Shown: positions 23,850 to 41,763 of the stretch, one piece after another
Numbering within the stretch: the stretch's first letter is position 1
How the letters are laid out: the number at the start of each line of letters is the position of its first letter
From: Deltaproteobacteria bacterium
Lineage (GTDB): Bacteria; Myxococcota_A; UBA9042; DTJE01
Length of the DNA: 64,000 bases
Assembly: GCA_029547805.1 (NCBI GenBank)
Contig: JAKPOP010000010.1
Coordinates: 459,675-523,674, forward strand
Direction of reading: 5' to 3'
The notes under the pieces: generated by a model
The model's database searches: none
Seen by the model: the letters and a program-made list of their open reading frames with translations, nothing else
Told to the model about the DNA's origin: nothing
Made by a program: the position numbers and the translations under genes

Positions 23850-24793
23850 CCCCCCGTGGATCCCAGGCCATGCCGCTCCTCTGCCTGATGGGGACGACGG
23901 CCTCGGGCAAGACGGCCCTCTCGATCCGCCTGGCCGAGGCGCTGGCGGGCGAGGTGGTCAACGGGGACTCGATGCAGGTCTTCCGGGGTCTGGAGATCGG
24001 CACGGCCGCTCCGACCCCGGAGGAGCGAGGGGCCGTTCCCCATCACCTGTTCGGCATCTGGGAACCCACCGAGGAGCCCGACGCGGCCCGCTGGGCCCGG
24101 CTGGCGGCCGATCGATGCCGGGAGATTGCCGGTCGGGGCCGCGTGCCCATCCTGGTCGGCGGCACCTTCTTCTGGTTCCGGGTGCTGCTGGAGGGTCTCT
24201 CGCACATCCCGCCGGTCCCCCGGGAGGTGCGACTGGAGGTGCTGGCGGACCTGGCGCGGGAGGGACCCGAGGCCCTGCACCGACGCCTGCAAGGGCTGGA
24301 CCCCGCCATCGCCGCCCGCCTCTCCCCCGGGGACTCCCAGCGGGTCGCCCGGGCCCTCGAGGTGGTCCTGGCCACCGGGACCCCCCTCTCGACCCTCCAG
24401 CAGCAAGCGCCGGTGCCCTTCCTGGAGGCACGGGTCCTCCGCCTCGCCCCGACCCTGACGGTGGAGGAGACCGACCGGCGCATCGCCCAGCGGGCCCGCC
24501 GGATGTTCGAGGAGGGCATCGTGGACGAGGTCCGCCGAGTGCTGGGCGCCGGATGTCCCCCGGACGCCCGGCCCCTCCGGACGGCCTCCTACGCCCCGGT
24601 CGTGGACCTGATTCTGGGACGCTGCACGGAACCGGAGGCCCGGGAGCGGGTCATCCTGGGACATCGCCAGTATGCCAAACGCCAACGGACCTGGCTCCGG
24701 AGGGAATCGGACCTGGTGCGGATCTCCGGGGCCTCCCCCTGGGAGGACGCCCTCCGGGTCGTGACGGCTTTCCTTCGGGAGGTCCGGGGCTGA
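23846..24793 (+). CDS. miaA: tRNA dimethylallyltransferase
   Basis: Adds a dimethylallyl group to A37 of tRNAs that read codons beginning with U. It has 315 residues: P-loop GTTASGKTAL, the substrate motif NGDSMQVFRGLEIGTA, VGGTFFWFRVLLEG, and the C-terminal GHRQYAKRQRTWLRRE signature. The start is taken as the ATG at 23846, overlapping the mutL stop (ATGA). An ATG at 23870 (MPLLCLMG) is an alternative nearer the P-loop. mutL-miaA adjacency is common in bacteria. Confidence 0.95.
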   Translation: MTPRGSQAMPLLCLMGTTASGKTALSIRLAEALAGEVVNGDSMQVFRGLEIGTAAPTPEERGAVPHHLFGIWEPTEEPDAARWARLAADRCREIAGRGRVPILVGGTFFWFRVLLEGLSHIPPVPREVRLEVLADLAREGPEALHRRLQGLDPAIAARLSPGDSQRVARALEVVLATGTPLSTLQQQAPVPFLEARVLRLAPTLTVEETDRRIAQRARRMFEEGIVDEVRRVLGAGCPPDARPLRTASYAPVVDLILGRCTEPEARERVILGHRQYAKRQRTWLRRESDLVRISGASPWEDALRVVTAFLREVRG

Positions 24794-24841
24794 CCGGGCG
24801 CCGAGGGGGGTGAGACCGCCCCGGGGCACCGTCACGGCGGG

Positions 24842-25678
24842 TCAGAAATCCAGCGTGGCCCGGATCTGGCGGCGCTTCTGGAACATCTTCTCCTGGCGCT
24901 CCTGCTCCTCCTTGCAGATGATGCAGAAGGTCGTCTCGGGGCGGGCCAGCAGGCGCTTGCGCCCGATCGGATTCCCGCAGGACTCGCAGATGTCGTACTC
25001 CCCTTCCTCGATGCGGGTCAGGGCCTTTTCGATCTTTCGCAACAGGAACTTCTCCCGGTCCCGCATCCGGTACTCGAAGGACTGATCGTACTCCGTCGAG
25101 GCCTGGTCCACCTCGTCGGGGGCCCGGGACTCCAGGTTCTCCTGGGCCTCCATCGTCTCCCGGGCCGACTCGATCAGCGCCTGCCGCCTCTCGCTCAACA
25201 GTTGCCGGAACTCCTCCACCTCCTCGGGGGTCAACCGCTTCTGGAGGTCTTCATCCCGACCGCCGCTCTTCGGGGGCACCCGGGGTCCGGTCCGCCCCTC
25301 TTCCTCCTCGGGATGGGGCTCCGGAACCCCAGCGGGAGTCTTGCCCGCCGCCTTGGCCGGAGCCTTCGCCGGGGCCTTGGCCGGGGCCTTGGCGGCCTTC
25401 GCGGGCGCCGCCGCCTTCGCCGGGGCCTTGGCAGGCGCCTTGGCGGAGGCCTTCGCAGGTGCCTTTGCCGGGGCCTTGGCCGGTGCCGCCGTCTTTGCGG
25501 GAGCCTTCGCGGCGGCCTTGGCGGGCGCCGCCGCCTTCGCCGGGGCCTTGGCAGGCGCCTTGGCGGGCGCGGCCGCCTTCGCGGGGGCCTTCGCCGGTGC
25601 CTTGGCGGGCGCCGCCGCCTTCGCGGGAGCCTTTCCCGTCGTCACTTCCTCGTCCGTTGGAGCGGTCTTCTTCGCCAC
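24842..25678 (-). CDS. dksA: DksA/TraR-family RNA polymerase-binding protein with long Ala-Lys-Pro tail
   Basis: DksA enters the RNA polymerase secondary channel and, with ppGpp, controls rRNA and stress promoters. The last 145 residues are a full DksA: a coiled coil whose tip keeps two Asp in PDEVDQAS, then a zinc finger with Cys231, 234, 252 and 255. The first 120 residues are unusual: AKAPAKA/AAPAKAP repeats, strongly basic, like histone H1 tails. Similar tails occur on some proteins of Myxococcota. GTG start at 25678, 6 bases after AGGAGG. The gene has its own strong promoter and lies just downstream of drmC on the same strand. Confidence 0.9.
   Translation of the reverse strand: MAKKTAPTDEEVTTGKAPAKAAAPAKAPAKAPAKAAAPAKAPAKAPAKAAAPAKAAAKAPAKTAAPAKAPAKAPAKASAKAPAKAPAKAAAPAKAAKAPAKAPAKAPAKAAGKTPAGVPEPHPEEEEGRTGPRVPPKSGGRDEDLQKRLTPEEVEEFRQLLSERRQALIESARETMEAQENLESRAPDEVDQASTEYDQSFEYRMRDREKFLLRKIEKALTRIEEGEYDICESCGNPIGRKRLLARPETTFCIICKEEQERQEKMFQKRRQIRATLDF
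25333..25640 (-). repeat. Coding tandem repeats (Ala/Lys/Pro) in the dksA-type gene
   Basis: The segment consists of degenerate 12-15-base units encoding Ala-Lys-Ala-Pro. It contains a larger exact direct repeat: 46 identical bases at 25401-25446 and 25521-25566, exactly 120 bases (40 codons) apart. The frame is kept throughout, so the repeats lengthen or shorten the protein tail without disrupting the DksA domain. Confidence 0.9.
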
Positions 25679-25734
25679 GGCAACCTCCTTCCCAACAAGG
25701 CCTCTCCGGGGTCGGCCACTCGGGCCGGAGGCTC

Positions 25735-25763
25735 ATTATTTGGGAGGCCTCTCGAATCGTCAA
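25735..25763 (-). promoter_or_regulatory. Promoter of the dksA-type gene
   Basis: On the minus strand, TTGACG (25763-25758), a 17-base spacer, then AATAAT (25740-25735), one of the best sigma-70 matches in the window. A leader of about 50 bases precedes the GTG. The remaining 25764-25890, between this promoter and drmC, contains no gene and no clear terminator. Confidence 0.65.
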
Positions 25764-25890
25764 GCCACTCCCCAAAGAAGGCACAAGCAGACCAGATTGG
25801 CCATGGCGCGTCCCGTCTTGCCCACCGGGAGGTCCCCGTCACCTGTTTGCTGATGTTCGAGCGTTTCGGCGAAGCCTCGGATGTCCTCGG

Positions 25891-26676
25891 TCACTGTGAC
25901 GGCAGGGGCCTCAGCAACCCACGGTCGATCAGCCCCTGGAAGTGACTCACCACGCTGGCCGCCAGGGTCCGGTCGCGTATCAGAAGCCCGAGTTCGATGT
26001 TTCTTTCCAACGCAGCCTCGGTGAGGTTGGCCGAGGTCACGAACACCGCTTCCTCATCGGCCACGACCGCCTTGGCGTGCAGAACGCCTCCTCGAGCCTC
26101 CAGGTCGAGGGCCCGGGGGTCGTAGAAGACCGCTGGACGCGCCATGCCAGGCCAGTCGGTTCCCCAGAATCGGTCCGCAAACTGGCGCACCAGGTGTTCG
26201 GTGGCCGTCGTGTCGCCGCGCCGGCGCTGGATGTTCAGCAGCAACGTCACACGGAGATCCGGCATCTCATCCATCCGCCGGGCCAGCACCTCGAAGGCCC
26301 TGGGGCCGTCAAAAAACACGAAGGTGCTCGCCCAGATGGAGCATCGGGCAGACCCAAGCAGTTCCTCGTAGACGCGGCGTGTATCGCGGGCGTGCAGACC
26401 CGGCACCTCGGGCCCCGACCACACCAGGTCAGGCCTCGGCGACCGAGAGGCTGCCTTTGCGAGGCTGCGAAGCCACATCGCAGCGACACGTCCCGAGACC
26501 CCGGTCCTGTCGAGGTCGGCCAGCGCCTCCAAGACCGTATCTGTTGCCCCCGTGCTCCCGAGCAACGATCGCAGGGAAGCCGGAGTGTACGGCGGGGACA
26601 ACAACCCTGATTCCAGGGCGGCCGCGAGCCGCTCGCAGAGATGTGGTGCCAGTTCGATCAGCCTGTCGATCATCAT
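25891..26676 (-). CDS. drmC: DISARM protein DrmC, phospholipase D-like
   Basis: DrmC is the phospholipase D-fold component found in both DISARM classes; its exact role is unsettled, and it is reported as dispensable in a studied system. It has 261 residues. One HKD motif is visible near residue 200 (HAKAVVAD, followed by TSANLTEAALERNIELGLLI). The upstream IWASTFVFFDGPRAFEVL and LRVTLLLNIQRR segments fit the first strands of a PLD domain. With a single HKD, an active enzyme would need a dimer. The start ATG overlaps the drmB stop as ATGA. It is the last gene of the operon. Confidence 0.88.
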   Translation of the reverse strand: MMIDRLIELAPHLCERLAAALESGLLSPPYTPASLRSLLGSTGATDTVLEALADLDRTGVSGRVAAMWLRSLAKAASRSPRPDLVWSGPEVPGLHARDTRRVYEELLGSARCSIWASTFVFFDGPRAFEVLARRMDEMPDLRVTLLLNIQRRRGDTTATEHLVRQFADRFWGTDWPGMARPAVFYDPRALDLEARGGVLHAKAVVADEEAVFVTSANLTEAALERNIELGLLIRDRTLAASVVSHFQGLIDRGLLRPLPSQ

Positions 26677-28466
26677 TCGTCCAGAAAGAATGCCGCGTCA
26701 GGAGTTCCGAGAACCGGCACCACCAGCGCGCGGTCAAGGTAGTCGTTACGCATCTCGCAGGAAGTCTCTGCGATCAGCGTGCAGGCGTGACAGGCGGCAC
26801 CGTGAAGCCAGCGATCCTCCATGCTGGTGCCTGCGTCGTGCTGAGCGCAGATCGGGTCATTCGAGCACAGCGTGCTGGTGCCCAGGGCGTGCGCCAGATG
26901 GTCTTCGAAGTAGCGAGCCTGCTGGACCAGACCACCAAGCGTTCCCTCGGCATCCGGGCTTCCCGTGTACAGCAGAATGCCGAAGCGCTTCCCTTCGGTG
27001 TCCACGTAGATCCGCTCGCGGATCGAACTTGCGGGATACCCGCATCGCATGGCAAGGGACTGGAGGATCAGGTGCGAGAGCGTGTGAAGAAGCACATAGG
27101 GCCCGCCGGGAAACGGCCGCTGGTTCTTTTGACTGGCTGTCCATCGATCGTGCCCGGACCGGAGACTGTCGAGGCGACGCTGAACCGCCGGACGTTCCAG
27201 CCAGCGTTGAACCGCTTCCGCGCGCAACTTCACGAACACGCCCTCGCCACGGTTTTCCACAGCGGGGAACCATGTCGGTTCGATGGCAATCTGCGCTCGC
27301 TCCACATCGGTCTCATACTCCCCCTGGATATCCGGCATCACGGCCTCCAGCCGAGTGAAGCCGATGAGCGCCATCACCTCTCGCAGCCGATGCAACTGGA
27401 TCACGGCCTCAATGCCGCCCCATCGCCCCGAGCGGCGCCACACCCGATCGGGCAGGAGGCGGGCGTGGAAGTTCGGGTCGACCGGTACGTCCTCACCGAA
27501 GCCTTCGGGCGCCGCGAGAATGGCATCGAGCTCGGCCTGCTTGACGGGACGCTCGGTCTGGGCGCCGCGCTTCCGCCTACCGATGGCCTCCAGGACTTCC
27601 TGATCGCTGAAGGAAGCAAGCCTCTCCGCGATCCTGGGCTTTCTCTTGATGAAGCGAAGGCCCGCAGCATCCTCGACGATCTGAAGGTCGTCCCAGAGGT
27701 CCGCCACGGCGGCGTCCACCGCACCGGAGCGCTCGGGCAGCGAGAGCACGCTCAAGACCTGCGGGAAATAGGCGTTGGACGCCGTGCGGATGAGGAGCCG
27801 GCTCGGTTGATTGCACTCCTCGACCGCGTCCTTGCCGAGCCAGGGCCGCGCCCCCCGACAGGTGCCAAGGGGGTTGTTCTCGAGGAGCGTCGCCTCGTAG
27901 AGGTTTCGCTGTTTGCCGCACTCGCAGCGGACGACCAGTTCCGCCAGGTCCCCGCTGGTCCCGCGCTCGTCAAGCCAGAGTTGTCGGCTGCATGTCTTGT
28001 CGGAACCGTGCACAAAGCCTTTCCAGTCGAGGTCGTCCACGTGTCCTTTGGGGCACGCCCGCACGAAGCGGGTGGCGACCACCGCCCGGCCATCGAAGCG
28101 GCCCTTCTCGTCGAGGGCCTTGCGATGCACCAGCCGGCGCGATCGCTCCCGGTTCTGGGAGCCACCCTCGTCCTGTACGATAAACCACTCGGGGAAGCGC
28201 CAGGCGCCGATGCCCCTTGCCGGCTCGCTGGGATCGCTCGGATCGGCCGGAGGAGCATAGAGCCGGGGAGACCGGACGCCGGTCATGACCTCGAGCCTGC
28301 GGGAAAGCCTTGGCTCGACGATTTCCTCCAAATCGCCTGGCTTCGGCCATGATGTCTCAAGCCCACCGACGATCGCTGAATGCGCGGGCAGGTCAATCAA
28401 CGCCCCAGGCCCGTAGGTGGTGATGACCTGGCTTCGCCGGACCTGGCCGTTCGCCTTGTGATTCAT
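26673..28466 (-). CDS. drmB: DISARM protein DrmB (DUF1998)
   Basis: Core DISARM subunit that, in described systems, partners the DrmA helicase and blocks incoming phage DNA. It has 597 residues. The opening RRSQVITTYGPGALIDLP is characteristic. Paired cysteines (RACPKGH, RCECGK) in the first half suggest a zinc ribbon. The DUF1998 region lies at about residues 455-580 (LLHTLSHLILQSLAMRCGYPASSIRERIY, then a Cys-rich HGAACHACTLIAETSC). It overlaps drmA upstream and drmC downstream by four bases each. Confidence 0.92.
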   Translation of the reverse strand: MNHKANGQVRRSQVITTYGPGALIDLPAHSAIVGGLETSWPKPGDLEEIVEPRLSRRLEVMTGVRSPRLYAPPADPSDPSEPARGIGAWRFPEWFIVQDEGGSQNRERSRRLVHRKALDEKGRFDGRAVVATRFVRACPKGHVDDLDWKGFVHGSDKTCSRQLWLDERGTSGDLAELVVRCECGKQRNLYEATLLENNPLGTCRGARPWLGKDAVEECNQPSRLLIRTASNAYFPQVLSVLSLPERSGAVDAAVADLWDDLQIVEDAAGLRFIKRKPRIAERLASFSDQEVLEAIGRRKRGAQTERPVKQAELDAILAAPEGFGEDVPVDPNFHARLLPDRVWRRSGRWGGIEAVIQLHRLREVMALIGFTRLEAVMPDIQGEYETDVERAQIAIEPTWFPAVENRGEGVFVKLRAEAVQRWLERPAVQRRLDSLRSGHDRWTASQKNQRPFPGGPYVLLHTLSHLILQSLAMRCGYPASSIRERIYVDTEGKRFGILLYTGSPDAEGTLGGLVQQARYFEDHLAHALGTSTLCSNDPICAQHDAGTSMEDRWLHGAACHACTLIAETSCEMRNDYLDRALVVPVLGTPDAAFFLDE

Positions 28467-31400
28467 GCGCGATCCTCCCCGGCGATCCTACTCAGATCCC
28501 TCAGAAAGAGATTGACCACGGGCTCCACGTCGCGGAGCGAACGATTGGCTCGGAACTTCCGGTGGTGTTCGGACTCGAAGTCCCGGTCCAGCATCTCCCG
28601 AAGGAGTGGTTTCGGTCCAGCCATCTCGTGCTTCTGGTATTGCATGGCCACGCCATTTGCCCTGTAGTCCTCGAAGACCTTGCGCCAGGAATCGAGCAGG
28701 TCCACGATCCGGTTCTGGACGCTCCGGAGACGCTCCTCCCGCTCCGCCTCGTCCGCGAAGGGCTGCTGGCGCACCCGTTCAAGGAACACCTCGACAAGTC
28801 GGCGCTCGAGCGCGGCGCGTACGTCCCCGATCCGCTCGACCCCCCGCGGCGGCGTGAGTTCGGGCTGGGTGTGTCGCGCGAGGCCCACCAGAGCGCCGGC
28901 GAAACCACGGTCGAGTGCGCGGGCCGCGAATGGCGTGACGCTCCCGACCTCCACGGAGCGATAGAAGGTCTCGTGGTAGTGACGGAAGCGCTCATAGTGG
29001 GAGCGGTCGCGCGGTTTGTGAATGTTGAAGATCGTGACGACGAGGCCGGGGCGTGTATCGTCGCGGCCCACGCGGCTCGTGGCCTGGATGTACTCGGCAT
29101 GGCTCTTGGGCTGGCCGAACACGACCATGAGTCCCAACCTCGGGATGTCGAGTCCGACCGAGATCATGTTCGTTGCGAGCGCGCAGTCCACGTGGTGCTT
29201 GTCGTGATACGGTGCCTCGAGCCTGCGGCGCGCCTCGGCCACCTTGTCAGTGGTGACCCGCGAGGTCAGTTCCACCACCTCGGAAAACGTCTTGCGGTCG
29301 CAGAAGAGACCCGGCTCCTCGCCGATTCTTCGACGGGTGCTGTAGGCCTTCAGCGTGTTCTGGACCTCCTCTTCCAGAATGCGCCGCGCCCCGCCCAGTT
29401 CCCGCAGGGAGTTGAAATAGCCCACCACGGTCATGTACGGGTCGGCGGGGTTGGCCTGGTTGGCCTGCCCGCCCGCGTCGCGCCAGGCGCGCTCGGCCGC
29501 ACCCATGAGTGCAAGGTACGCATGGCGCATCACGACCTTGGGATTCCGACCCTGGGCGGCAACGCCGACGTAGAGGCGCGCCGGGACTTTTCCAGCAGGG
29601 ACGGTCCGGGCGAAGAAGGAGTCTCGGCGGTCCGGTCCGGGCGGCGGGAACACCTGCGTGAGCGGACGGGCAAAGAGGGCCTGGATCTGGTCCTGGGCCT
29701 GGCGCACGGTGGCAGTGGACGCGACGATCTTGGGCCTCACGGCCCGACCCTCGATCTCCCGCAGGCACAGCGCCTCGATCGGCGCCTCGTAGAGGCCGGC
29801 CATCGTGCCGAGCGGCCCTGATATCAGATGCAACTCGTCCTGGATCACAAGGTCCGGAGGAGACAGCGGTGCGGCGAGGCGCGCGCCCCGGCCGGGTTCG
29901 GCGGCCCCGTAGAAACCATCCCCATCGTGCCGATCCGCCCCCCCAAGCAGCAGACCAGCCTGTCCAACCCACGGAAGCGAGGCGAACTTGTCCACGGTGG
30001 CGATGAGAAAGGCCGGAAGTCGCCGGTAGATCGACTCGTCCACGGCGACGATGGGCAGCGCCTGATCACGAGAAAAGTCGCACTCTGGATTTGTGCAGAC
30101 GATGCGCAGTTCCCGGGGCTGGTCGTCGTTGGGCAACAATGCAAAGGACTCGGGCTCGAAGCGGGCACCGCACCACGGGCAGTTCTCGAGCGGGATCGGC
30201 GAAGGTTTCCCCTTCGGGTCTGCCTTGAACTGCCGCACCTTGACCCGGGCCGAGTCCGCCCGCTTTTCCCCCTTGCACCCGAGGATGTTCGGTGTGGCCC
30301 CCTTGCCGACCCACAGGCCGATCTCGAACGGCCATGCGCCGTAGCGCGCCGGGTCGCGCTTCCGTTCGAGTTCGAGGGCGCAGACGAGCCCGGCCGCGCG
30401 CCCGAGTTGATCGAGGGTCAGGAGCCGGAGCGTGTAGCGCATGATCACGCTGACGCCCGCCCCGGCGAGTCCCTGCTCCCCCGGGTGGCGCAGGCGCCGG
30501 ATCACCATCGCGAAGGCGGCGAGCCCCAGGTAGGCCTCGGTCTTGCCTCCGCCGGTTGGAAAGAAGAGCAGATCCACGGTGCGGCGGTGCGGGTCTCGCG
30601 GATCGACGATGCCGGGGAGGTTCAGGAGGAGGAACGCGATCTGGAAGGCGCGCCAGCGCGGAGTCTCGATCCCGAGGCGCTTCGAGAGCGCCCGGGCCAC
30701 GGCCCGGTTGGCCACGCGGAAGGCATCGAGGGCGTCCGGGTCCTCGGCAAGCACGTCAATCCCCCTCGCGATCCGGTTCGCCGCGACATTGGCCAGACGG
30801 AGAAGTTCCTCGGAGGTCTCTCGGTGCCTGTCTGAAAGCGAGACGACGGCGCGCCTCTGCTCCGCGATCCACGTGCGGTATGCCTCCACGAGGGGCGACA
30901 GCGCCGCCCTGGCCTCTTCGCCGTCGGCGAGAGCCCCCAGTTTCTCCATCGAGGTCTCCACACCGGGCACGTCCACCGTCTTCGTCTTTTCGACCTGGGC
31001 CTCCGGGATCCACGCGGTGCGGATCACGCGGCAGACACCGTCCTCCACCTCCCAGGCCGCCGAGACGCCGTGGCCGGTCGCATACTCCGGCGTGTCCGCG
31101 TAATGCAGGTCGGCCACTCGGTCGTCCCAGTTGTCGGCAAGCGCCCCGCGGGGGTCGGGTCGCGGTACGAAGGAATGATCGCACCGCACTTCGATCTCGG
31201 CCTGGAAGGCGTAGGCGCGATCGGGATTCTCCTGGTCGGGCGTACGGCGGTTGACCAGAAAGACCGAGACCGAACGGGTACCCGCCGGGATCAGTCCCGC
31301 CAGTTCCTTCCCTGCGACCGGCCGCTCGACGACGTAAATCTGGAGGCCGTCCGACCCGGTGACATCGCGCACGACCGGTTCGGACCGCCCATCGAGCGGG

Positions 31401-31861
31401 AGTGGGACGATGACCTCGCGCGGCGTCCGCTGCCAGACAGACATCGGCTTGCCGTCTTCGCCCTGGACCTCCACGGGCGCATAGTCACCCCACCGCACCG
31501 TCACATCAAGGGCGCCCGCCGCCTCGGGCACGAGGAAAGAGAGACCCATCGAGGAAGGGAAGTGGCCCTTCTTGGCGGCCTTGCGATCCTCGCCCGTTTC
31601 GTCGTCTGGGCCCGCCGATTCGGAGACCACCACGAAGTCGTCGTCCTCGTCGGGGTCGGCACCCTTCTCGGGGGCCGTGCCTGATGGGATGAGGAAGCCC
31701 GTCAGGTACCACTTCGATGGTCGCACCCAGCCCGGGAGCCTCTCTTCGGCGAACGCGTGTCCTGCCCAGGGCCCGACCAGGTCGAGCCGCAATGCCTCGA
31801 CGATGCGCTCGCGCGCCTCCACCGAGGTTCCAGGTGTCGTACTGCCCGGATCCCGCGTCAT
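28463..31861 (-). CDS. drmA: DISARM helicase DrmA
   Basis: Superfamily 2 helicase-like ATPase, the core nucleic-acid-binding subunit of DISARM. It has 1132 residues. Walker A (FPTGGGKTEAYLGL) lies near residue 435, the DEXH-type motif II (IQDELHLISG) near 674, STATVRQA as motif III, and the C-terminal helicase region ends with ATNMISVGLDIPRLGLM and QATSRVGRD (motifs V and VI). An acidic low-complexity stretch (DPDEDDDFVV) lies near residue 73. GGAGGAAG precedes the ATG. Twenty-one bases upstream ends a small ORF that overlaps drmMI. Confidence 0.93.
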   Translation of the reverse strand: MTRDPGSTTPGTSVEARERIVEALRLDLVGPWAGHAFAEERLPGWVRPSKWYLTGFLIPSGTAPEKGADPDEDDDFVVVSESAGPDDETGEDRKAAKKGHFPSSMGLSFLVPEAAGALDVTVRWGDYAPVEVQGEDGKPMSVWQRTPREVIVPLPLDGRSEPVVRDVTGSDGLQIYVVERPVAGKELAGLIPAGTRSVSVFLVNRRTPDQENPDRAYAFQAEIEVRCDHSFVPRPDPRGALADNWDDRVADLHYADTPEYATGHGVSAAWEVEDGVCRVIRTAWIPEAQVEKTKTVDVPGVETSMEKLGALADGEEARAALSPLVEAYRTWIAEQRRAVVSLSDRHRETSEELLRLANVAANRIARGIDVLAEDPDALDAFRVANRAVARALSKRLGIETPRWRAFQIAFLLLNLPGIVDPRDPHRRTVDLLFFPTGGGKTEAYLGLAAFAMVIRRLRHPGEQGLAGAGVSVIMRYTLRLLTLDQLGRAAGLVCALELERKRDPARYGAWPFEIGLWVGKGATPNILGCKGEKRADSARVKVRQFKADPKGKPSPIPLENCPWCGARFEPESFALLPNDDQPRELRIVCTNPECDFSRDQALPIVAVDESIYRRLPAFLIATVDKFASLPWVGQAGLLLGGADRHDGDGFYGAAEPGRGARLAAPLSPPDLVIQDELHLISGPLGTMAGLYEAPIEALCLREIEGRAVRPKIVASTATVRQAQDQIQALFARPLTQVFPPPGPDRRDSFFARTVPAGKVPARLYVGVAAQGRNPKVVMRHAYLALMGAAERAWRDAGGQANQANPADPYMTVVGYFNSLRELGGARRILEEEVQNTLKAYSTRRRIGEEPGLFCDRKTFSEVVELTSRVTTDKVAEARRRLEAPYHDKHHVDCALATNMISVGLDIPRLGLMVVFGQPKSHAEYIQATSRVGRDDTRPGLVVTIFNIHKPRDRSHYERFRHYHETFYRSVEVGSVTPFAARALDRGFAGALVGLARHTQPELTPPRGVERIGDVRAALERRLVEVFLERVRQQPFADEAEREERLRSVQNRIVDLLDSWRKVFEDYRANGVAMQYQKHEMAGPKPLLREMLDRDFESEHHRKFRANRSLRDVEPVVNLFLRDLSRIAGEDRA

Positions 31862-31882
31862 GGATGTTCTTCCTCCAAGTTC

Positions 31883-32020
31883 CTAAACGTACGGTGGTCC
31901 TGATGCCAGCATCTTCCCCACGAGGAAGCAGGATCCACCCGAACTCGCCTGTCCGGTGACCATGCCACTGAGGTCGGCCCCGTCCATGACGGGCACTCGT
32001 GCATGCGGGGACGGGGTCAT
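31883..32020 (-). CDS. Small ORF (45 aa) between drmMI and drmA, unknown
   Basis: A 45-codon frame begins with an ATG overlapping the drmMI stop codon (ATGA at 32020-32017) and ends with TAG at 31883, 21 bases before drmA. The predicted peptide runs MTPSPHARVPVMDGADLSGM, then a Gly/Ser stretch, then CFLVGKMLASGPPYV. It has no motif I recognise and no independent ribosome-binding site, so translation would depend on coupling. In an operon where every other junction is within 4 bases, the space is otherwise unexplained. It could be a real accessory peptide, a decayed gene, or just a spacer. Confidence 0.4.
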   Translation of the reverse strand: MTPSPHARVPVMDGADLSGMVTGQASSGGSCFLVGKMLASGPPYV

Positions 32021-35000
32021 AGCAGTTCCCCCTTGGTTGCCCCCTCGGCTGCCTTCTTTCCGTCGCGCCTGCCCGCCGCCGCGGCGCCGGAGCGGGACTC
32101 GGCGCGGGCGCGGTCGGCGTTGAGGTCGAGCAGGCGCGCGAGGACCTCGGCATGGACCTCGTCGGGCCAGCGGTAGCGCCAGGGCCTCTTCTTGTCGCCC
32201 CACTCCTCCTCGTCCACCTCGTAGTCGAGGAAGAAGTCGCAGTCGGTCGGGAGGTCGGTCCAGCCGTAGGCCTCGAGCACGGCCCGGTCCATCGCAGCAT
32301 GGAGTTCCCGGAGCCTCAGGATGCCGGGGTCGGTCTCGTTCGGGTCGTGGAAGCGGTTGTAGGTCTTCGTGAGGCCCTCGTTGTTCTTCACCATGAGGGC
32401 GGCGCGGAAGTCATAGTACGCCTTGCCGGCGGCTTCGAGGGCCGGGTGGGTCTCCCAGCCCTCGGGGAAGGGGAAGGTCTCGAAGCAGTCGGAGGGGGTG
32501 TAGCGAAGGTCGTCCTTCATGGACGACCCGAAGAAGCGCGCCCAGACCTCGTGCGGGCGGGCCTGGAGGGCGCAGAAGGCGGCGTGGGTGGGGAAGGGGA
32601 AGACAATCAGCGAGTCTGCGTAGACCATTGCCGCCGGCAGAAAGCTGACCGCCGCCTGTTGCCCAACGCGCGATATCACCAGCACCCGCTCCAGCCCCGC
32701 GATGGCGGCGTAGAGTTCCGGGCGTGCGTTCCAGTATTTCCACCACTCGTGCACCATCCGCGGGTACTTCTTTGCGTCCTTGGTGACCCGCTCCGGCTTC
32801 ACCTTCGCCTCGACGATCGCCATGAACTCCGGCCAGCGGCGGCGGCACTCCTCCTCGCTCCGCTCGCCGAAGTTGATGACATAGCGGTGGTGGGCGTGCG
32901 TCGGGCTCGTGTTCACCTCCTCGCCGCCGATGTAGGGGAAGATGACCTCGCGGTAGTCCGGGTGCTCGGCGAGGATCCGCTCCATCTCGGCGATCGGTGT
33001 CGCAACCCCCTTCGTGTCGGTGTCGTCGAAGGTGAAGCCCTGTCCGTAGATCTTCACGCCCTCGAATTGCTTACCCTTGTTCGCTAGGAGCCGCGTCGGG
33101 TCGGCGTGGCTGCCGCGGTGGAACAGGAACGCCGTGATCTTCGGCACCTCGCGGTCATCGAGGCGCTTCGGCCCAGGGAGGGCCCCCTTCATCACATGGA
33201 CGACGCTCACCACGACCGCGGCCATCCCGGGCCACTTGACGCGCTTCCTGACGGCGTAGATCTCGCCGCCGTGTTGGCAGATCCAGCGCAGTCCTCCGCC
33301 GCGCGTGTCGCCCTGGGCGATCGTGTTCGTGGCGATTAGGCCAAACGTCCCGTCCACGCGAAGTAACGCGAACGCGCGCCGGAAGAAATACGCCACGAGG
33401 TCGCAGCGGTTCTTGGCTTCCGGGTATGCGTCGTAGAGCCAGTCGCGGTACCGTTCACCCAGTTTTGTGGAGATGATCGTCCCACCCATGAACGGCGGAT
33501 TCCCCACGATCGCGTCGAACCCCGGGTTCTCGCGCTCGAAGACCTCCGGGAACTCGATCTCCCAGTGGAACGGTGCAAGCGGCGGGTCGGCGTGGCGGCG
33601 GTCCTCCAGGAAGGCACGGTAGCGATCGGCCACACCGCTCACCACCGCGTCCGCGAACTCCGCCCGCCTCCGCTCCCGATCCTTCGGCTTCTCCCCTTCG
33701 AAAAAGGCCGCGACAGCGAGGTCGCCCAAAAGCCGCACCTGGCCGATCTCGAACTGGGCCTTGTCCCATAGGCCGCGCAGGTCCGAAGCCCCCTCCCCCG
33801 CCTCGCGGATCTCCCGGCGCAGCGCGGACACCTTCTCCAGGTGCTCTCGCACGCGCATGGCCTCGAAGCCGGCCTGGAAGATCGGCGCATCCGTCTCCCA
33901 GTGGAAGGCTTCGATCTGCCGACGCGACAGGCCCACCAGCGAGTCCCCGTGCCGCAGCGCGTGGTCCACGAAGGTGAGCGGGTGGTCCTTGGCAAGCGTC
34001 ACGAGCCACAGCGACATCTTGGCCAGGTCCACGGCCACGGGATTGCGGTCCACTCCGTAGAGGCACCGCTGGGCGACCAGACGGCGCGCGTGGACCACCT
34101 CGTCCTCGTCGGGCGGGATCGCAGGCGCCTCGCGATGGGCGTGCCAGGACTCGATGAGGGCATCGGCAAGGTATCGGCAAGTCTCGACGAGAAACGCCCC
34201 GGACCCCATCGCCGGATCGCAGACCTTGAGGTCGAGAATCTGTTCGGGCCGCGGGGGCCGGCCGTCCGGTTCCCGCAGGCGCGCGAGGATGGGATCCAGG
34301 GTCGTGCGCACGATTGGCTCGGTAAGGGATCGAGGCGTGTAGTGCGATCCCGATCGGCGCCGCTCCTCGCTCGGCTGGAGGACCATCGCGCCCCGAGGCA
34401 TCAGGTCGGGCGTCGCGGCCTGGTCCACCAAGGACAGAAGCGCCGCGTGCAGGTCCTCGATCGTCATGGCCTCTTCGACGCGCCGCTTCACGGCATCGGT
34501 GGGCTTGCGGTCGGCGCGGTCCTGAATCCACTTCGCACGATTCGCCGCCGGCTCCGCGAGGAGCGCCTCCAAATCCACGGTCGCGGGCGCGCCGTGCCTC
34601 TTCTGCGAGCGAATCGCCACCGAGCGGCCGGTCGCGGTCTCCAGCCGAAACCCCATCATCGTCTCGTACACCGAGCCGATCTGCTCGACGTCGAGTGCCC
34701 GGTACGAGATGCGCTCGCCGTCCAGCACGAGGAGTTTCTCGAGGACGCGGTAGATCGTGCCGTCGGGGACGAGCGGGGGGGTGATCCGCTCGTGGTCCTG
34801 CCACGAGCCGCCGCGCCTCCCCTCGAGGAAGGGGAAGCGGTCGGGGTCGAAGAGCACGCCGCGGCGCCGCGGCAGTTGCATCCCAGGCGCTCGGGCGCCC
34901 TCATGAACCATGCGGAAGAGTGCCAGGAGTTGCGCCCAGGCCCCGTAGCGCTGGTCCATCGTGTCGGGGTGCAGCGCCGCGTCCTCGCGCAGCCGTTCAT

Positions 35001-36000
35001 GGAGCCCGGCAAGCGAGTAGGAACGCAGGAACGTCTCGTGATCGGGCAGCATCCCCCGCTCCTCGGCGTAGAGCAGGAAGACAAGGCGGAGGATGACGGT
35101 CAGGAGCGCGTGGTACACCTCGTTGGGCTCCTCGGCCAGTGTGTGCCGCAGAAGTTCGCCCCTTGATGCGTCGTGGGCGGCCTGGAAGCCCCGGAGGAGT
35201 TCGTAGAGGGCGTGGAGCACCTGCTCGGCAAGGCGCTCGCTCACCTCGTTCTGGAACTTGCGACTCTCGGCGAGGAGCGCGGCGAGGCGTTGATGGCGTG
35301 GAAGGGCCAGAAGCCGCCGCTCGCCGAGCAAGAGCCGCAGGGCCGCGCAGATGGGTCGGCCCATCGTCTGAACCATGTCGGCGACCTGGAAGTCGAGCCA
35401 GCCCGAAGACTCTCCGCGCGGTGCCGAGACGAGGCGCAGCGCCCGACCGTTCACCAGGAGGCCGGCCGGAACGCGCGTCTCGCGCAGGAGCCGCTCCATG
35501 CGGGAATGGGGGGGCAGATCGAGACGGCCGCCCGTCGGGCGGTCGAAATCCGCCGAAGGCTCCAGCACCTGCACGAGGAGCTGCCAGGGCGGGGCGCCCT
35601 CCTCGGGGTCGGGTTCCCGGACCGCGTAATCGGGCCGGAGGGTCTCGCCGATGTCAGGAAGCGGGACGTGCAACTCCGGTGGGATCAGGGCCTGCTCGAT
35701 GCCGGCGTATCCCTTTGGGGAGAAGGACCAGCCGAGGACCGATCGTGCGAAGGCGCGAAAGTCGCGGATGGAGGGCTCGGACTGCGCCTTGCCGCCGTAG
35801 GGCTGTTCGGTTTCGCGAATGCCGCCGGGGAGGTCGCCGCCCTCGAGAAAGTCGCGGAGCAAGTGCTGCCCCTCGGCGTCGCTCCGGTTCAGAATCGCCC
35901 CCGCGCGCACGAGCGCCGGGGCGGAGACGACGAGCCCGGTCGGCCGGACGAACCCGAGCCACTCAAGGTGCGCCAGGACGTGCGGGTCGAGTCTTGCCAT
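32017..36000 (-). CDS. drmMI: DISARM class 1 adenine-specific DNA methyltransferase DrmMI
   Basis: N6-adenine methyltransferase that marks host DNA as self in class 1 DISARM. It has 1327 residues, the size of large type IIG/BREX-like methylases. The S-adenosylmethionine motif DPAMGSGAF lies near residue 595, and the catalytic motif IV NPPF (DAIVGNPPFMGG) near 833. The C-terminal third carries an FGSSMKDDLRYTPSDCFETFPFP segment typical of the target-recognition side of such enzymes. The ATG is 2 bases after the drmD stop. The open frame continues another 298 codons upstream, antisense-like across drmD, which is a GC-skew artefact. Confidence 0.93.
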   Translation of the reverse strand: MARLDPHVLAHLEWLGFVRPTGLVVSAPALVRAGAILNRSDAEGQHLLRDFLEGGDLPGGIRETEQPYGGKAQSEPSIRDFRAFARSVLGWSFSPKGYAGIEQALIPPELHVPLPDIGETLRPDYAVREPDPEEGAPPWQLLVQVLEPSADFDRPTGGRLDLPPHSRMERLLRETRVPAGLLVNGRALRLVSAPRGESSGWLDFQVADMVQTMGRPICAALRLLLGERRLLALPRHQRLAALLAESRKFQNEVSERLAEQVLHALYELLRGFQAAHDASRGELLRHTLAEEPNEVYHALLTVILRLVFLLYAEERGMLPDHETFLRSYSLAGLHERLREDAALHPDTMDQRYGAWAQLLALFRMVHEGARAPGMQLPRRRGVLFDPDRFPFLEGRRGGSWQDHERITPPLVPDGTIYRVLEKLLVLDGERISYRALDVEQIGSVYETMMGFRLETATGRSVAIRSQKRHGAPATVDLEALLAEPAANRAKWIQDRADRKPTDAVKRRVEEAMTIEDLHAALLSLVDQAATPDLMPRGAMVLQPSEERRRSGSHYTPRSLTEPIVRTTLDPILARLREPDGRPPRPEQILDLKVCDPAMGSGAFLVETCRYLADALIESWHAHREAPAIPPDEDEVVHARRLVAQRCLYGVDRNPVAVDLAKMSLWLVTLAKDHPLTFVDHALRHGDSLVGLSRRQIEAFHWETDAPIFQAGFEAMRVREHLEKVSALRREIREAGEGASDLRGLWDKAQFEIGQVRLLGDLAVAAFFEGEKPKDRERRRAEFADAVVSGVADRYRAFLEDRRHADPPLAPFHWEIEFPEVFERENPGFDAIVGNPPFMGGTIISTKLGERYRDWLYDAYPEAKNRCDLVAYFFRRAFALLRVDGTFGLIATNTIAQGDTRGGGLRWICQHGGEIYAVRKRVKWPGMAAVVVSVVHVMKGALPGPKRLDDREVPKITAFLFHRGSHADPTRLLANKGKQFEGVKIYGQGFTFDDTDTKGVATPIAEMERILAEHPDYREVIFPYIGGEEVNTSPTHAHHRYVINFGERSEEECRRRWPEFMAIVEAKVKPERVTKDAKKYPRMVHEWWKYWNARPELYAAIAGLERVLVISRVGQQAAVSFLPAAMVYADSLIVFPFPTHAAFCALQARPHEVWARFFGSSMKDDLRYTPSDCFETFPFPEGWETHPALEAAGKAYYDFRAALMVKNNEGLTKTYNRFHDPNETDPGILRLRELHAAMDRAVLEAYGWTDLPTDCDFFLDYEVDEEEWGDKKRPWRYRWPDEVHAEVLARLLDLNADRARAESRSGAAAAGRRDGKKAAEGATKGELL

Positions 36001-36002
36001 GG

Positions 36003-39000
36003 CTAACCCGTCTCCGGCCAGAGATAGACGAGCCCCACGGGCTCCACACGCTTCGCCCTCACCTCGTAAAAGTCGCGGATCCGGGCGGGCTCGTGGGCCA
36101 GGTCGTGCTCGAACTGCTTGAGACGCTCCCGCCAGGCGCGGACGTCGGCCTCGAGCTGCCTCTTGGCGTCCTCGACTTCGCGTCTCCTCTCTTCGAGTTC
36201 CCGCCTCGTCAACGCCTGGCGGATGCGGTCCTCCTCGAACAGCAACCCTTGAGCGAGAGCCTGCTCCTCCCTCTTCAGCTGCTCTTCGATCGGTAGCTTG
36301 CCTGCTTCGTACTTCGCCAGCTCCTTGCGGACGCGCTCGCGCTGGCGCTCGAGGGTCTCGACAAGGGCTCGCGCCTCGGACTCCCCGCGGTCGCGGAGCC
36401 TTTCGATGGCCGCCAGAGCCCACTCCTCGGCGCGCGGCTCGAGGTGGGGCAGCAGGTCTTGGATGTCGCGGGGGGCCGCCTGAAGGAGCCTCCGCTGGAT
36501 CGCCTCGCCCGGCACGCGGGCGGCATTTTCGGCGAGGGAGCGTTCGAGGAGGTCGAGGGTCCTGGCCTCGGCTTCCCGCGCATAAGGCACGAGAGGCCCT
36601 CGGCGCTGGGACGGTTCGACCCAGCGCGCCGTGACCGGGACGATCTCCTCGTGCAGCCGCTCGGCTCCACGACCGTAGAGCGAGAGCCGACCGAGCAGGA
36701 TCACGCGCGGGATCGAGTCGGCGGCCTGGGCGATGCAGGCCCGCGAGAGGTCGTGATAGACGAACCCCTGGGCTCGGAAGCGGGCAAGCAGCCTCTGGGC
36801 CACGCGCTGCGCGAGGTGCAGGTGCACGGTGTCCTCGGTCAGCACGCCCGCGTCCTCGAAGACGACGGGCCGGATCGGGGCCTCGCGGCGCCACTCGGCG
36901 ATCTTCTGGTCCTCCCGGCGGGGTACGCGCAGGCTGTCGAGCGTCGCGGCCCAGCTCGGGTCGGCCTGTGCGCGCCGATCCAGCGGCGGGAAGACGTACA
37001 CGCGGCGGCCATGCTCGTCTGTCGCCTCGGCGAGCGGCTCGGCGCCGAGGATCTCGAGCGAGCAGGACAGGGCCTCGCGGAAGGCGCCGGCGTCGAACCG
37101 CATGAAGGCACGCGATTTCTCTAGCAGTTCGCGGCAGCGATCGATCTGGACTTGGAGGTCCTTCTGCCGCTCGCGGGCCGATTCCAGTTCCTCTTCCGTC
37201 ACGTTCCTGCGCATCGCATCGAGGTCGGCCGCCTGGATCTCCCGCGCCAGCCGATCGACGTCGCGATGGCGGATGCCCTTGGCGAGGCGACGCTCGATAT
37301 CGTCCTCGATCACCTTGGACAGGCTGCCGAGTTCCTGCTTGATGGTCTCTGTCTTCTGGACGAGCACCTCGAGCACCCGGTCCTCGGCCCGCTGGGGCAG
37401 GACGAAATAGCGACAGCGAACCTCCGGGGCCGGCTGGAGTTTTCGGTCGATGCGGCCGTTACGCTGTTCGATGCGGCCCGGGTTCCAGGGGAGATCGAAG
37501 TGGAACAGGTCGGTGCAGTGGGCCTGGAAGTTCAGCCCCTCGCGGGCGGCGTCTGTCGCCAGGAGGATGCGCAGCGGGTCATTGGCCGGGTGCGTGTTGA
37601 AGCGCCGCTGGATCTCCTTGCGCCGGGTGCTGCTGGTGAGGCCATCGATCACCTCGATGCGCTCGTCCGCGCGGTCCGTGCCCTCGATCGCCTGATCAAG
37701 GATGGCCTTCAGGTAACGCTTCGTGCCCTCGCGGTTCTCGGTGAAGATGAGCACGCGGCGGTCAAGCCAGCGGGGTGGCGGGCCGTTCGGCCGCTGGCCG
37801 AACGGGGGGAGTTCCGGGCAGAGCTGATCGCGAATCCAGTCGATGAGGTATCGTGTCTTGGCGTCGGGAAGGTGGCGGCTCCGTTCGGCGATCTCCTGCA
37901 TGCGGTCCAGGAGGGCCTGCTCACGGCGAAAGAGCGCTTCCGAGGCAGCGTCACGGGGCGATTCGGCCTCCGCCGCGGTGGTGACCGTTTCGACCTCGGC
38001 CGCCTCCTCCGTGTCGGCCTCCTCGGGGGACAACAGACCGCGATCATCATCGGCATCGGGGACCGAGGTGAAGCGCGCCGCGGCCTCGTCGCCGACCGCT
38101 GGCGCCTCCACACGCCCCTTCGCCCACTCCCGCTCGATTGTCGTCCGGTGAACCTTGAGGCTGCGGGCGAAGGCCTCGATGGACGAGAGCAGCCGCTGCT
38201 GGAGGCCGACCACAAGGAGCCCCGCGGCCACCTGCGCGGGCTTCGTCGTACCTGCGAAACGCTCCTCCCGCACGGTCCGGTATTCGTCCAACAGCCGCGA
38301 AAGCACGAGTTCGGGGGCATCGTCAGGCAGCCCGTCGAGCGGGATGCCGACGACAACGCGCCTGGGAAAGCCGCCCTGGATCGCGCGGATGTCCTCCTTC
38401 AGGCGGCGCACCACCACCTCTTCAAGCCGCTCGGGGCGAATCTTCACGCCACGAGTGAACCGGTACGGGTCGAGGATCTCCATCAGCGTCGAAAAGGAGT
38501 TCGAGTACCCGTTGTGCGGCGTGGCCGACAGAAACAGGCGATGCTCGAAGCGGCTCGCGATATCGCGGATCGCGCGCGTGAACCTGGTCTCGATGCCGTA
38601 GCGCCCTCCGCTTGTGGGCGCGGCGTGGTGGGCCTCGTCCAGGATGAGAAGGCTTCCAGGGAGGAAGCCCCCCAGCCACTCCCGCATCGGGTCGGCGTAC
38701 GCCGGGTCAATCAGCAGGTTGTGGGAGACGAGGAATCGACTGTGGGTGCGCCAGGGGTTCACGCCGAAGCCGCGCTCCCGACGCATCCTGGCAATGTAGG
38801 CACGATCCAGGATCTCGAACACGAGGCCGAACCGCTCCTCCAGTTCGGTCTTCCATTGCTCGATCACCGACGGAGGCGCAGCGACGACGATGGTCTTGAC
38901 CTTTCTACGCAGCAGGAGTTCGGATGCAATGAGGCCCGCCTCGATTGTCTTGCCGAGGCCCGTGTCGTCCGCGATGAACAGATTGACGCGCGGCAGCCGC

Positions 39001-39431
39001 AGCGCCTTGCGCAGAGGCTCCATCTGATAGGCGTCGATCCGGATCCCCGCGCGGAAGGGCGACTGGAAGAGGTTCGGGTCGGTCGCGGTCACGCAATTCC
39101 AGCGGAGTGTATGGAAGAAGGCGGCAAAGGCACGCGGCGGATCGAACCCCTTGGCCCCGAGATTCCCCCAGCCCTCGTCCGTCAGGACCCGTCGGTCGGG
39201 CTCGTGGTCCCAGAAGACCTCAAGGGTCTGGCCCTGGTTGTCGTCGTCCGCGCACGCCAGCCGGACGATCGGCGACTGGCCGGGTTCGTCCGCCACAACA
39301 GTCTCTTCGACCAGCCATCGCCGGGAGCGTACCTGGACCAGGTCCCCCGGTTCCGGCACGCTTTTGGGATGACTCCCCGGCAACGTCTGGGAAGCCGACG
39401 GAATCGTCGTCGATTGGAAGTCCACAGGCAT
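36003..39431 (-). CDS. drmD: DISARM class 1 SNF2-type helicase DrmD
   Basis: SNF2/RapA-like ATPase that defines class 1 DISARM. It has 1142 residues from the ATG at 39431; a GTG at 39440 would add three, and GGGGG precedes the ATG by about 9 bases. Motif I (DDTGLGKT) lies near residue 156, DEAH near 265, SATP near 303, and motif VI (QRNGRIDR) near 690. The C-terminal 150 residues are rich in Glu, Arg and Lys and predicted coiled coil. It is first in the operon behind a recognisable promoter. It resembles bacterial RapA-type translocases, but the neighbouring genes settle the assignment. Confidence 0.92.
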   Translation of the reverse strand: MPVDFQSTTIPSASQTLPGSHPKSVPEPGDLVQVRSRRWLVEETVVADEPGQSPIVRLACADDDNQGQTLEVFWDHEPDRRVLTDEGWGNLGAKGFDPPRAFAAFFHTLRWNCVTATDPNLFQSPFRAGIRIDAYQMEPLRKALRLPRVNLFIADDTGLGKTIEAGLIASELLLRRKVKTIVVAAPPSVIEQWKTELEERFGLVFEILDRAYIARMRRERGFGVNPWRTHSRFLVSHNLLIDPAYADPMREWLGGFLPGSLLILDEAHHAAPTSGGRYGIETRFTRAIRDIASRFEHRLFLSATPHNGYSNSFSTLMEILDPYRFTRGVKIRPERLEEVVVRRLKEDIRAIQGGFPRRVVVGIPLDGLPDDAPELVLSRLLDEYRTVREERFAGTTKPAQVAAGLLVVGLQQRLLSSIEAFARSLKVHRTTIEREWAKGRVEAPAVGDEAAARFTSVPDADDDRGLLSPEEADTEEAAEVETVTTAAEAESPRDAASEALFRREQALLDRMQEIAERSRHLPDAKTRYLIDWIRDQLCPELPPFGQRPNGPPPRWLDRRVLIFTENREGTKRYLKAILDQAIEGTDRADERIEVIDGLTSSTRRKEIQRRFNTHPANDPLRILLATDAAREGLNFQAHCTDLFHFDLPWNPGRIEQRNGRIDRKLQPAPEVRCRYFVLPQRAEDRVLEVLVQKTETIKQELGSLSKVIEDDIERRLAKGIRHRDVDRLAREIQAADLDAMRRNVTEEELESARERQKDLQVQIDRCRELLEKSRAFMRFDAGAFREALSCSLEILGAEPLAEATDEHGRRVYVFPPLDRRAQADPSWAATLDSLRVPRREDQKIAEWRREAPIRPVVFEDAGVLTEDTVHLHLAQRVAQRLLARFRAQGFVYHDLSRACIAQAADSIPRVILLGRLSLYGRGAERLHEEIVPVTARWVEPSQRRGPLVPYAREAEARTLDLLERSLAENAARVPGEAIQRRLLQAAPRDIQDLLPHLEPRAEEWALAAIERLRDRGESEARALVETLERQRERVRKELAKYEAGKLPIEEQLKREEQALAQGLLFEEDRIRQALTRRELEERRREVEDAKRQLEADVRAWRERLKQFEHDLAHEPARIRDFYEVRAKRVEPVGLVYLWPETG

Positions 39432-39450
39432 CCGAATCACCCCCTGGCCA

Positions 39451-39478
39451 AGTATTCCGGTGGTTCGCAGAAAGTCAA
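39451..39478 (-). promoter_or_regulatory. Promoter of the DISARM operon
   Basis: On the minus strand, TTGACT (39478-39473), a 16-base spacer, then AATACT (39456-39451). Transcription would start near 39444, about a dozen bases before the ATG at 39431. It is the only clear promoter seen upstream of the five drm genes. Confidence 0.5.
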
Positions 39479-39696
39479 CGAGGACTCTGAATGCGAGACT
39501 ACTTCAGGTAACCGCGAAATTCGTCGCAGGACCGCGGCACCATGCCCATGCCGGAGGACGGAGGCCTGCGACGCGACCCGGGCATCCAACGAACCATCGG
39601 GGGATCGCCCCAGGTCGTGCGAGGCGAAGGACAGGCCTGGGCCTCGACGCGTGTCCTTGACCTGGACTCCTGGCCCTGACTCCTCTCCGCGCCGCG

Positions 39697-39725
39697 TTGA
39701 GACAGGGGGCCGGACATGCTAGCGT
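39697..39725 (+). promoter_or_regulatory. speE promoter
   Basis: TTGAGA at 39697-39702, a 17-base spacer, then TAGCGT at 39720-39725. A leader of about 70 bases precedes the ATG at 39804, which has GGAGG at 39795-39799 nearby. Confidence 0.5.
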
Positions 39726-39803
39726 TGCCACCCGGCGAGTCCCTGGAGTCCCTCCGCGGCCGAGGGCCTCCCGCCAGCAAACGGGTCCGATTGGAGGTGC
39801 ACA

Positions 39804-40655
39804 ATGGCCAGCACGGATGTCCGCTTCGTCGAGGATGCCCCCTTCTGCCCCACCCGCTGCGAGTATCCGATCCGCCAGGTCCTCTACCAGGGCCGCAGCG
39901 AGTACCAGGAGTTCGCGGTGGTCGAGAGCCCCTGGTTCGGCCGGATGCTGGTGCTGGACGGGGTGGTCCAGTTCACCGAGCGGGACGAGTTCTACTACCA
40001 CGAGATGCTGGCCCACGTGGCCCTGCACGCCATGGAGGCCCCCCGGCGGGTGATCGTGATCGGCGGCGGGGACGGCGGGGTCGTCCGGGAGGTCCTCAAG
40101 CACCCGACCATCGAACAGGTCTTCCTGATCGACATCGACCCGGAGGTCGGACGGGTCTCCCGGGAGTTCTTCCCGACGGTGAGTTGCGGGCTGAAAGACC
40201 CCCGGGTGGTCGAGCGGCCCATGGATGGCGCCCGGTTCCTGCGGGAGTATCAGGGGCGGGCCGATGCCATCCTGGTGGACTCCACCGACATCATGGGCTT
40301 CGCCGAGAGCCTCTTCACGCCGGAGTTCTTCGCCGAGGCGAACCGGATCCTCGAGGACCACGGCCTCTTCGTGACCCTCTCGGAGTCCATCCACTACCAC
40401 CTGCCCATCGTCCGGCAGGTCCAGAACCTGCTGCGGGCAGCCTTCCGACAGGCGGACCTCTACACCGCCCCCATCGCGACCTACCCCGGCTACTGGTGGT
40501 GCTTCGCCGTCGGGTCCAAGGGGGCCTCCTGCCGGGAGCCGGTCCGGGCCCCGGTGACCCCGACGCGCTACTACGGCGACGAGGTGCACCGCTGGTGCTT
40601 CGTCCCGAAGGTCCTCTATGACCGGATCATGGAAGAGGGCCGCGAGTCCCTGTAG
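39804..40655 (+). CDS. speE: Spermidine synthase (polyamine aminopropyltransferase)
   Basis: Transfers an aminopropyl group from decarboxylated S-adenosylmethionine to putrescine. It has 283 residues. The substrate-binding loop VIGGGDGGVVREVLKH (about residues 84-99) and the DxDPEV acid after it are clear, as are YYHEMLAHV and GYWWCFAVGSK. The catalytic DSTDPxGPAxxL segment appears as DSTDIMGFAESLF, so substrate preference may differ from the E. coli enzyme. Single gene with its own promoter; a tRNA gene follows. Confidence 0.92.
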   Translation: MASTDVRFVEDAPFCPTRCEYPIRQVLYQGRSEYQEFAVVESPWFGRMLVLDGVVQFTERDEFYYHEMLAHVALHAMEAPRRVIVIGGGDGGVVREVLKHPTIEQVFLIDIDPEVGRVSREFFPTVSCGLKDPRVVERPMDGARFLREYQGRADAILVDSTDIMGFAESLFTPEFFAEANRILEDHGLFVTLSESIHYHLPIVRQVQNLLRAAFRQADLYTAPIATYPGYWWCFAVGSKGASCREPVRAPVTPTRYYGDEVHRWCFVPKVLYDRIMEEGRESL

Positions 40656-40695
40656 GTCCCCCGCCTGCCGGTGCCCTCGATTCCCCGCTCGGGAC

Positions 40696-40724
40696 TTGCC
40701 CCGGGGCGTGCGGCAGCGTATGCT
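40696..40724 (+). promoter_or_regulatory. tRNA-Pro promoter
   Basis: TTGCCC at 40696-40701, a 17-base spacer, then TATGCT at 40719-40724. The predicted transcript starts about 10 bases before the tRNA 5' end. Confidence 0.6.
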
Positions 40725-40741
40725 CTGGGCCGCCTTGGACC

Positions 40742-41762: not shown

Positions 41763-41763
41763 C

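Follow-up and report, generated by a model that had tools for sequence, protein, structure and literature searches.

The stretch analyzed here (the window) comprises 64,000 nucleotides of a Deltaproteobacteria bacterium (assembly GCA_029547805.1, 4.08 Mb in 32 contigs; contig JAKPOP010000010.1, positions 459,675 to 523,674), and it carries on its minus strand the five genes of a class 1 DISARM anti-phage system. They lie at 25891-39431 as one co-directional operon in the order drmD-drmMI-drmA-drmB-drmC, an order also kept in relatives holding several of these genes; coordinates are collected in Table 1. An earlier reading made from the letters only (the sequence-only reading) had called all five components present, intact and in standard order. 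It had named a search against DISARM profiles as a check that might refute it; in that search every one of the five proteins falls in DISARM, with PADLOC matches from 6.4e-82 to 0, and the Pfam domains concur; the pair specific to class 1, DrmD and DrmMI, is present by profile. In the translations all five frames are open over 13.5 kb, no gene is broken, and the motifs quoted in that reading are all found (DDTGLGKT/DEAH, DPAMGSGAF, NPPF, TGGGKT and HAK-x4-D). Judged by its profiles, the operon by itself is an ordinary complete class 1 DISARM of a known family. With its relatives taken into account, it is very probably a complete class 1 DISARM acquired as a block, whose two modules are joined in relatives by an exchangeable slot that here is nearly empty.

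Table 1. Features of the window, and proteins found in the drmMI-drmA slot of related loci (L numbers)
Feature	Position or locus	Strand	Evidence or remark
drmD, SNF2-type helicase, 1142 aa	36003..39431	minus	PADLOC DrmD 1.9e-297; Helicase_C, SNF2-rel_dom; DDTGLGKT and DEAH
drmMI, N6-adenine DNA methyltransferase with MmeI-type target-recognition region, 1327 aa	32017..36000	minus	PADLOC DrmMI E=0; Eco57I, N6_Mtase, MmeI_TRD; DPAMGSGAF and NPPF
drmA, YprA-family helicase, 1132 aa	28463..31861	minus	PADLOC DrmA 4.6e-277; solved DrmA 7s9v 2.1e-170; TGGGKT
drmB, DUF1998/MZB zinc-binding protein, separate gene, 597 aa	26673..28466	minus	PADLOC DrmB 3.4e-87; PF09369 1.7e-8
drmC, PLD-family nuclease, 261 aa	25891..26676	minus	PADLOC DrmC 6.4e-82; PLDc_2; HAKAVVAD (HxKx4D)
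Promoter-like site upstream of drmD	39451..39478	minus	TTGACT-16-AATACT (39478-39451), 9/12 matches
DrmMI residues 1-260, possible restriction-nuclease-like fold	35221..36000	minus	AlphaFold2 model, predicted local distance difference test (pLDDT) 92.5
drmMI-drmA junction (slot), 155 bp	31862..32016	minus	Gap distribution in relatives
45-codon open reading frame in the slot, status uncertain	31883..32020	minus	ATGA overlap with drmMI stop
Stretch replaced by 107 bp in G011	25773..39803		Approximate insertion limits; weak alignment may reach slightly further in on both sides
DarT and DarG	slot of L008, L027		
DarT and DarG (L007); DarT alone (L009)	L007, L009		Contigs stop before drmA
CBASS cyclase and phospholipase	slot of L014		
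Pycsar cyclase	slot of L050		
Nuclease of PADLOC 'Aga' models	slot of L016		'Aga' we take to mean Argonaute-associated
IetS	slot of L023		
GmrSD	slot of L033; L060, L067, L068, L082		The latter four by cluster
McrC with LmuB-like	slot of L055		
Thoeris-like TIR	slot of L049		
SIR2-STAND	slot of L038		Pfam; no PADLOC match
PtuA-like ATPase	slot of L061; L063		L063 by cluster
E1-E2 and NsnB-like	slot of L051		
Candidate PDC-M02B	slot of L043		

Between drmD and drmMI lie 2 bp, the pairs drmA/drmB and drmB/drmC each overlap by 4 bp, and 155 bp separate drmMI from drmA, so the earlier count of 2 to 4 bases at three of the four steps was correct; the wide fourth joint, which is where the unusual biology is found, drew no comment in that reading. 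The start of drmD is most likely the ATG at 39431, which is preceded by AGGGGG, begins an open frame and coincides with the end coordinate given in the sequence-only reading. The drmMI open reading frame as called mechanically, 32017-36894, begins inside drmD; its sensible start is the ATG at 36000, 2 bp past the drmD stop. The one recognisable promoter of that reading does exist as a site, but a scan of 14.3 kb returns 2 such sites against 0.5 expected, leaving a promoter upstream of drmD plausible but weakly supported. Compared with the class 1 DISARM of Serratia, whose DrmA is solved (7s9v/7s9w; PMC9142583), the same five components are found by profile, and the window's DrmA aligns to 7s9v over residues 84-1062. 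The window differs from that system in its host and in the 155-bp drmMI-drmA joint with a 45-codon open reading frame.

The drmMI-drmA joint was measured in relatives, starting from the best 80 of 185 loci returned by one DrmMI similarity search; these come from many phyla, the closest at 77%, and inserts longer than about 10 kb lie beyond their view. Of 52 such joints in this first set, 29 are wider than 500 bp, with a maximum of 8963 bp, and 23 measure at most 100 bp, with none between. Nostoc near-duplicates among the tight operons mean that the share of tight joints is, if anything, too high. The remaining joints exceed 500 bp in 10/73 cases for drmD-drmMI, 0/42 for drmA-drmB and 0/33 for drmB-drmC (Fisher p against the slot 7e-7, 3e-10 and 1e-8). 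The window's 155 bp is intermediate between the tight and wide groups, as is the 268 bp of L159, a locus of the phylum sample. That sample consists of 20 DrmA-bearing stretches from the host's phylum, hand-picked from DrmA matches, with drmMI on 14 of them. Its slot exceeds 500 bp in 12/14, or 11/13 once L142, identical to L067, is set aside; the exceptions are L146, which is tight, and L159. The corresponding counts without L142 are 1/11 for drmD-drmMI, 0/17 for drmB-drmC and 0/19 for drmA-drmB, the last including one negative value (L160) that is an artefact. Eight plasmid loci were opened of 20 listed; one is without annotation and one ran off the record, and among the 6 readable ones the slot is occupied in 4 and tight in 2.

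A quick DrmMI tree has 50 rows, 49 of which carry a slot state, and requires at least 11 changes of that state. The closest view of a change is given by two Nostoc operons, L065 and L070, which share 93% identity as far as about 20 bp from the drmMI stop of L065 and 95% identity from the drmA start onward, while the joint of L070 holds 2.6 kb and that of L065 has no insert. Exchange of a cassette through conserved flanks would give this pattern, with simple insertion or deletion as an alternative. Modification systems with accessory genes embedded between their own genes are familiar from Type I restriction and BREX loci; by comparison, the DISARM slot separates the modification half from the restriction half, and to our knowledge embedded accessory genes of that sort have not been known for DISARM. 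A description of the slot is absent from the titles and abstract openings returned by open-literature searches, a coverage outside which the founding DISARM paper (PubMed 29085076) falls.

The occupants are varied. Slot proteins were assigned by Pfam, PADLOC or blastp cluster, scanning 43 of the 98 that have at least 100 aa, more of them by Pfam than by PADLOC. Known or candidate defence matches occur in 18 of the 29 occupied first-set slots (Table 1), a count that keeps out the uncertain L032 (AAA_21) and L059 (YhcG nuclease) and leaves L013, L054, L058, L078 and L083 outside the scans. The slots of L011, L024, L044 and L070, scanned in part or whole, gave no defence match. For the phylum sample, one main protein was scanned from 10 of the 11 occupied slots, with matches to PtuA (L143), NsnB/AriA-like (L144), PDC-M56A (L145), a PD-T4-6-like kinase (L157) and, by Pfam only, SIR2-STAND (L161); the main slot protein of L149, L150, L154, L156 and L158 had no defence match. 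The slot proteins of L011, L044, L070, L149, L150, L154, L156 and L158 are thus candidates for unrecognised systems.

Three further loci show other arrangements. L105, a plasmid of Candidatus Thiodictyon, has ISAs1 transposase genes flanking drmMI on both sides and a MqsA antitoxin in the slot, and its drmD is a short SNF2-related piece only in a gene table that omits pseudogenes. On the Sphingomonas plasmid L110, a tight DISARM lies between cas3 and type I-E cas genes, with no drmC in an incomplete gene table, and this DISARM may itself be a passenger within another defence locus. In L041 a predicted pPIWI-associating nuclease (6453-7583, plus strand; Pfam 9e-19) stands directly behind drmMI on a contig piece that ends before drmA, and is possibly another slot passenger.

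In the window itself, the slot holds the 45-codon open reading frame. Compared with the insert proteins and the 80 loci it has no credible similarity: the best E is 1.0 by blastp and 0.88 by tblastn, and the joint itself gives 0.23 by blastn. The codon score of the frame is ambiguous, lying under 98.7% of 373 real gene pieces and above all 746 wrong-frame pieces. Neither a remnant of a lost insert nor a missed small DISARM protein is supported by similarity. We infer that the slot was emptied because its length is intermediate; possibly there was never an insert to lose.

The block as a whole has a counterpart site in a sister genome of the same genus, G011. The DNA of G011 aligns at 84% to 17068-25772 of the window and at 88% to 39804-45101, and 107 bp separate the two alignments there against 14 kb here. 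GC content is 67.5% inside the block and 71.4-71.6% in the flanks, which carry a dksA-like gene on one side and a spermidine synthase gene (speE) on the other. No 10-mers are common to 25701-25960 and 39431-39830, direct or inverted, and an integrase was not found among the ten neighbouring open reading frames scanned. In the more distant family genomes G002, G003, G006 and G010, speE was the only flanking gene found in the stretches examined; the adjacency is not kept there, which leaves G011 as the single genome that supports the empty site. By this comparison the DISARM block was gained after the window's genome and G011 diverged. A tRNA-Pro gene (40742-40817, plus strand) was considered as the integration site and rejected, since DISARM lies on the tRNA's 5' side beyond speE and the G011 match is unbroken from the speE start to past the tRNA.

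Of the 13 family genomes searched, DrmA is found in the window's own only. The claim that this is an uncommon host is weak nonetheless: in the survey of 377 genomes of the host's phylum at a threshold of E<=1e-100, 60 have DrmA relatives, the own genome included. The description of the chromosome as myxobacterial-type fits the large genomes, up to 12.7 Mb, among those surveyed.

DrmMI deserves separate treatment, in that it has likenesses to Type IIG (Type IIL) enzymes such as MmeI, including MmeI_TRD and MmeI_Mtase domains and an alignment to MmeI 5hr4 at 4.5e-7. Its NPPF motif is found in 75/75 aligned sequences, the window included. The model of residues 1-260 was compared with HsdR and DrdV, giving VIA-align Z of 6.1-6.7; the fold is perhaps like that of DrdV, a Type IIG/IIL enzyme (Z 6.4-6.6). 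Unlike those enzymes, DrmMI has no E-x-K on the expected strand, which reads QVL (residues 144-146) at a position variable among the 75 aligned sequences, and it stands within a five-gene operon. Residues 1-260 may then form a nuclease domain that has lost its activity, in which case DrmMI would only modify. Weighing against this, Z of 6-7 is common for unrelated models according to the tool, with best values of 7-8 usual in the absence of a clear match; mitoribosomal chains outrank the nucleases for this domain at Z 7.0-7.8; Foldseek against the PDB has no match under E 0.001 for the N-terminus; and the Pfam MmeI_N match of DrmMI is below cut-off.

Some neighbors of the operon are described here for completeness. 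The flanking dksA-like gene (24842-25678, minus strand) encodes a DksA-family protein whose N-terminal extension is long, rich in alanine, lysine and proline, and histone-H1-like; the sister genome has residues 133-278 at 95% identity, and the repeat part aligns there in several shifted pieces. At 42344-44562, also on the minus strand, a small gene, a DUF1257 protein and an AAA ATPase follow one another, with 88-98% identity to their counterparts in the sister genome; the group resembles the Ycf35/Ycf46-type set of cyanobacteria and plastids. Elsewhere in the host's own genome, L002 on contig C26 is a second DUF1998/MZB match above the family cut-off, an open frame of 1951 aa that is possibly a further YprA-family helicase.

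How the operon would work can be proposed from published DISARM work. DrmMI would methylate adenines of the host chromosome; DrmA-DrmB would bind unmethylated DNA with a single-stranded 5' end and thereby be released from self-inhibition; DrmAB, the helicase DrmD and the nuclease DrmC would together stop incoming DNA. Parts of PMC9142583 describe DrmAB as a helicase complex in which a DrmA loop holds it shut and 5'-overhang DNA opens it, report that unmethylated DNA stimulates it more than 5-methylcytosine DNA does, and call DrmC non-essential. If the N-terminus of DrmMI lacks catalytic residues, DrmMI would be a methyltransferase only, and cutting would fall to DrmC or a host nuclease. Anti-phage activity and host methylation are predictions for this operon. 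Across relatives, the operon would consist of the modules drmD-drmMI and drmA-drmB-drmC, with the slot between them gaining and losing other genes, many of them for defence.

A different partition would make drmD and drmMI a separate Type IIG/BREX-like or ARMADA-like restriction system standing beside a drmABC module. The two halves do meet precisely at the wide joint, DrmMI scores 591 bits against Type IIG profiles and matches PglX weakly, and DrmD matches HmaA and BREX helicase profiles at about 161-176 bits; in the parts of PMC12458937 that bear on this, ARMADA and class 1 DISARM have SNF2-type helicase and methyltransferase genes in common, and ARMADA, Druantia and Dpd share a YprA-family helicase with the window. 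The scores for DISARM components are far higher, however (DrmMI 1336 bits, DrmD 988 bits), and the joint that is wide here is tight in the 23 relatives already counted, with an ATGA overlap in 6 of the 15 tight joints listed; therefore the five genes form one unit. The separate drmB and the PLD nuclease DrmC also set the window apart from ARMADA, Druantia and Dpd, and are the DISARM arrangement in those same parts of PMC12458937. We regard this partition as very improbable, and its simpler form, a Type IIG enzyme with unrelated neighbours, is rejected on the profile scores and the tight relatives. That the operon is present yet non-functional in this host, as decaying or unexpressed cargo, is unlikely; acquisition after divergence from the sister genome, the weak promoter evidence and one joint without tight coupling would fit it, set against 13.5 kb of five open frames with intact motifs and coupling at the other three joints.

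It is similarly doubtful that the apparent slot reflects nothing more than the usual gathering of defence genes into islands, in which the drmMI-drmA joint would have no special part. The drmD-drmMI joint is opened at times as well, and some inserts contain transposases (L038, L060, L105), but the two downstream joints are never opened in the first set or in the phylum sample without the duplicate, and the close Nostoc operons differ exactly at drmMI-drmA. We lean, with some reserve, towards class 1 DISARM being built round an internal exchange slot between a modification half (drmD-drmMI) and a restriction half (drmA-drmB-drmC). This slot would take up, swap and lose whole defence systems, several of them toxin-antitoxin or nucleotide-signalling (DarTG, CBASS, Pycsar, SIR2-STAND, TIR), perhaps through recombination within the conserved genes on either side, and a single operon would then combine a first line with a changeable second line, and the window would hold a copy with a nearly emptied slot. 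Several points pull the other way. The loci are not all independent: L061 and L063 have related inserts, and several tight Nostoc operons are more than 97% identical. The first-set counts come from loci chosen by similarity to one DrmMI, and defence islands collect defence genes anywhere, the slot comparison covering joints inside the operon only. For the function of the window's copy, the promoter upstream of drmD is a weak consensus match, and the methylation test in the relevant parts of PMC9142583 used 5-methylcytosine, not adenine methylation.

The window adds one clean, complete class 1 DISARM whose gain can be dated to after the split from the sister genome. What matters more, and may surprise a specialist, is the slot in its relatives. 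If it is general, public class 1 DISARM operons would be a ready list of defence systems nested in another, some of them without a recognised family, and would make it possible to test on natural material whether DISARM and its passenger work jointly or one after the other. The slot further suggests that annotation rules requiring DISARM genes to be adjacent would break up occupied operons or overlook them.

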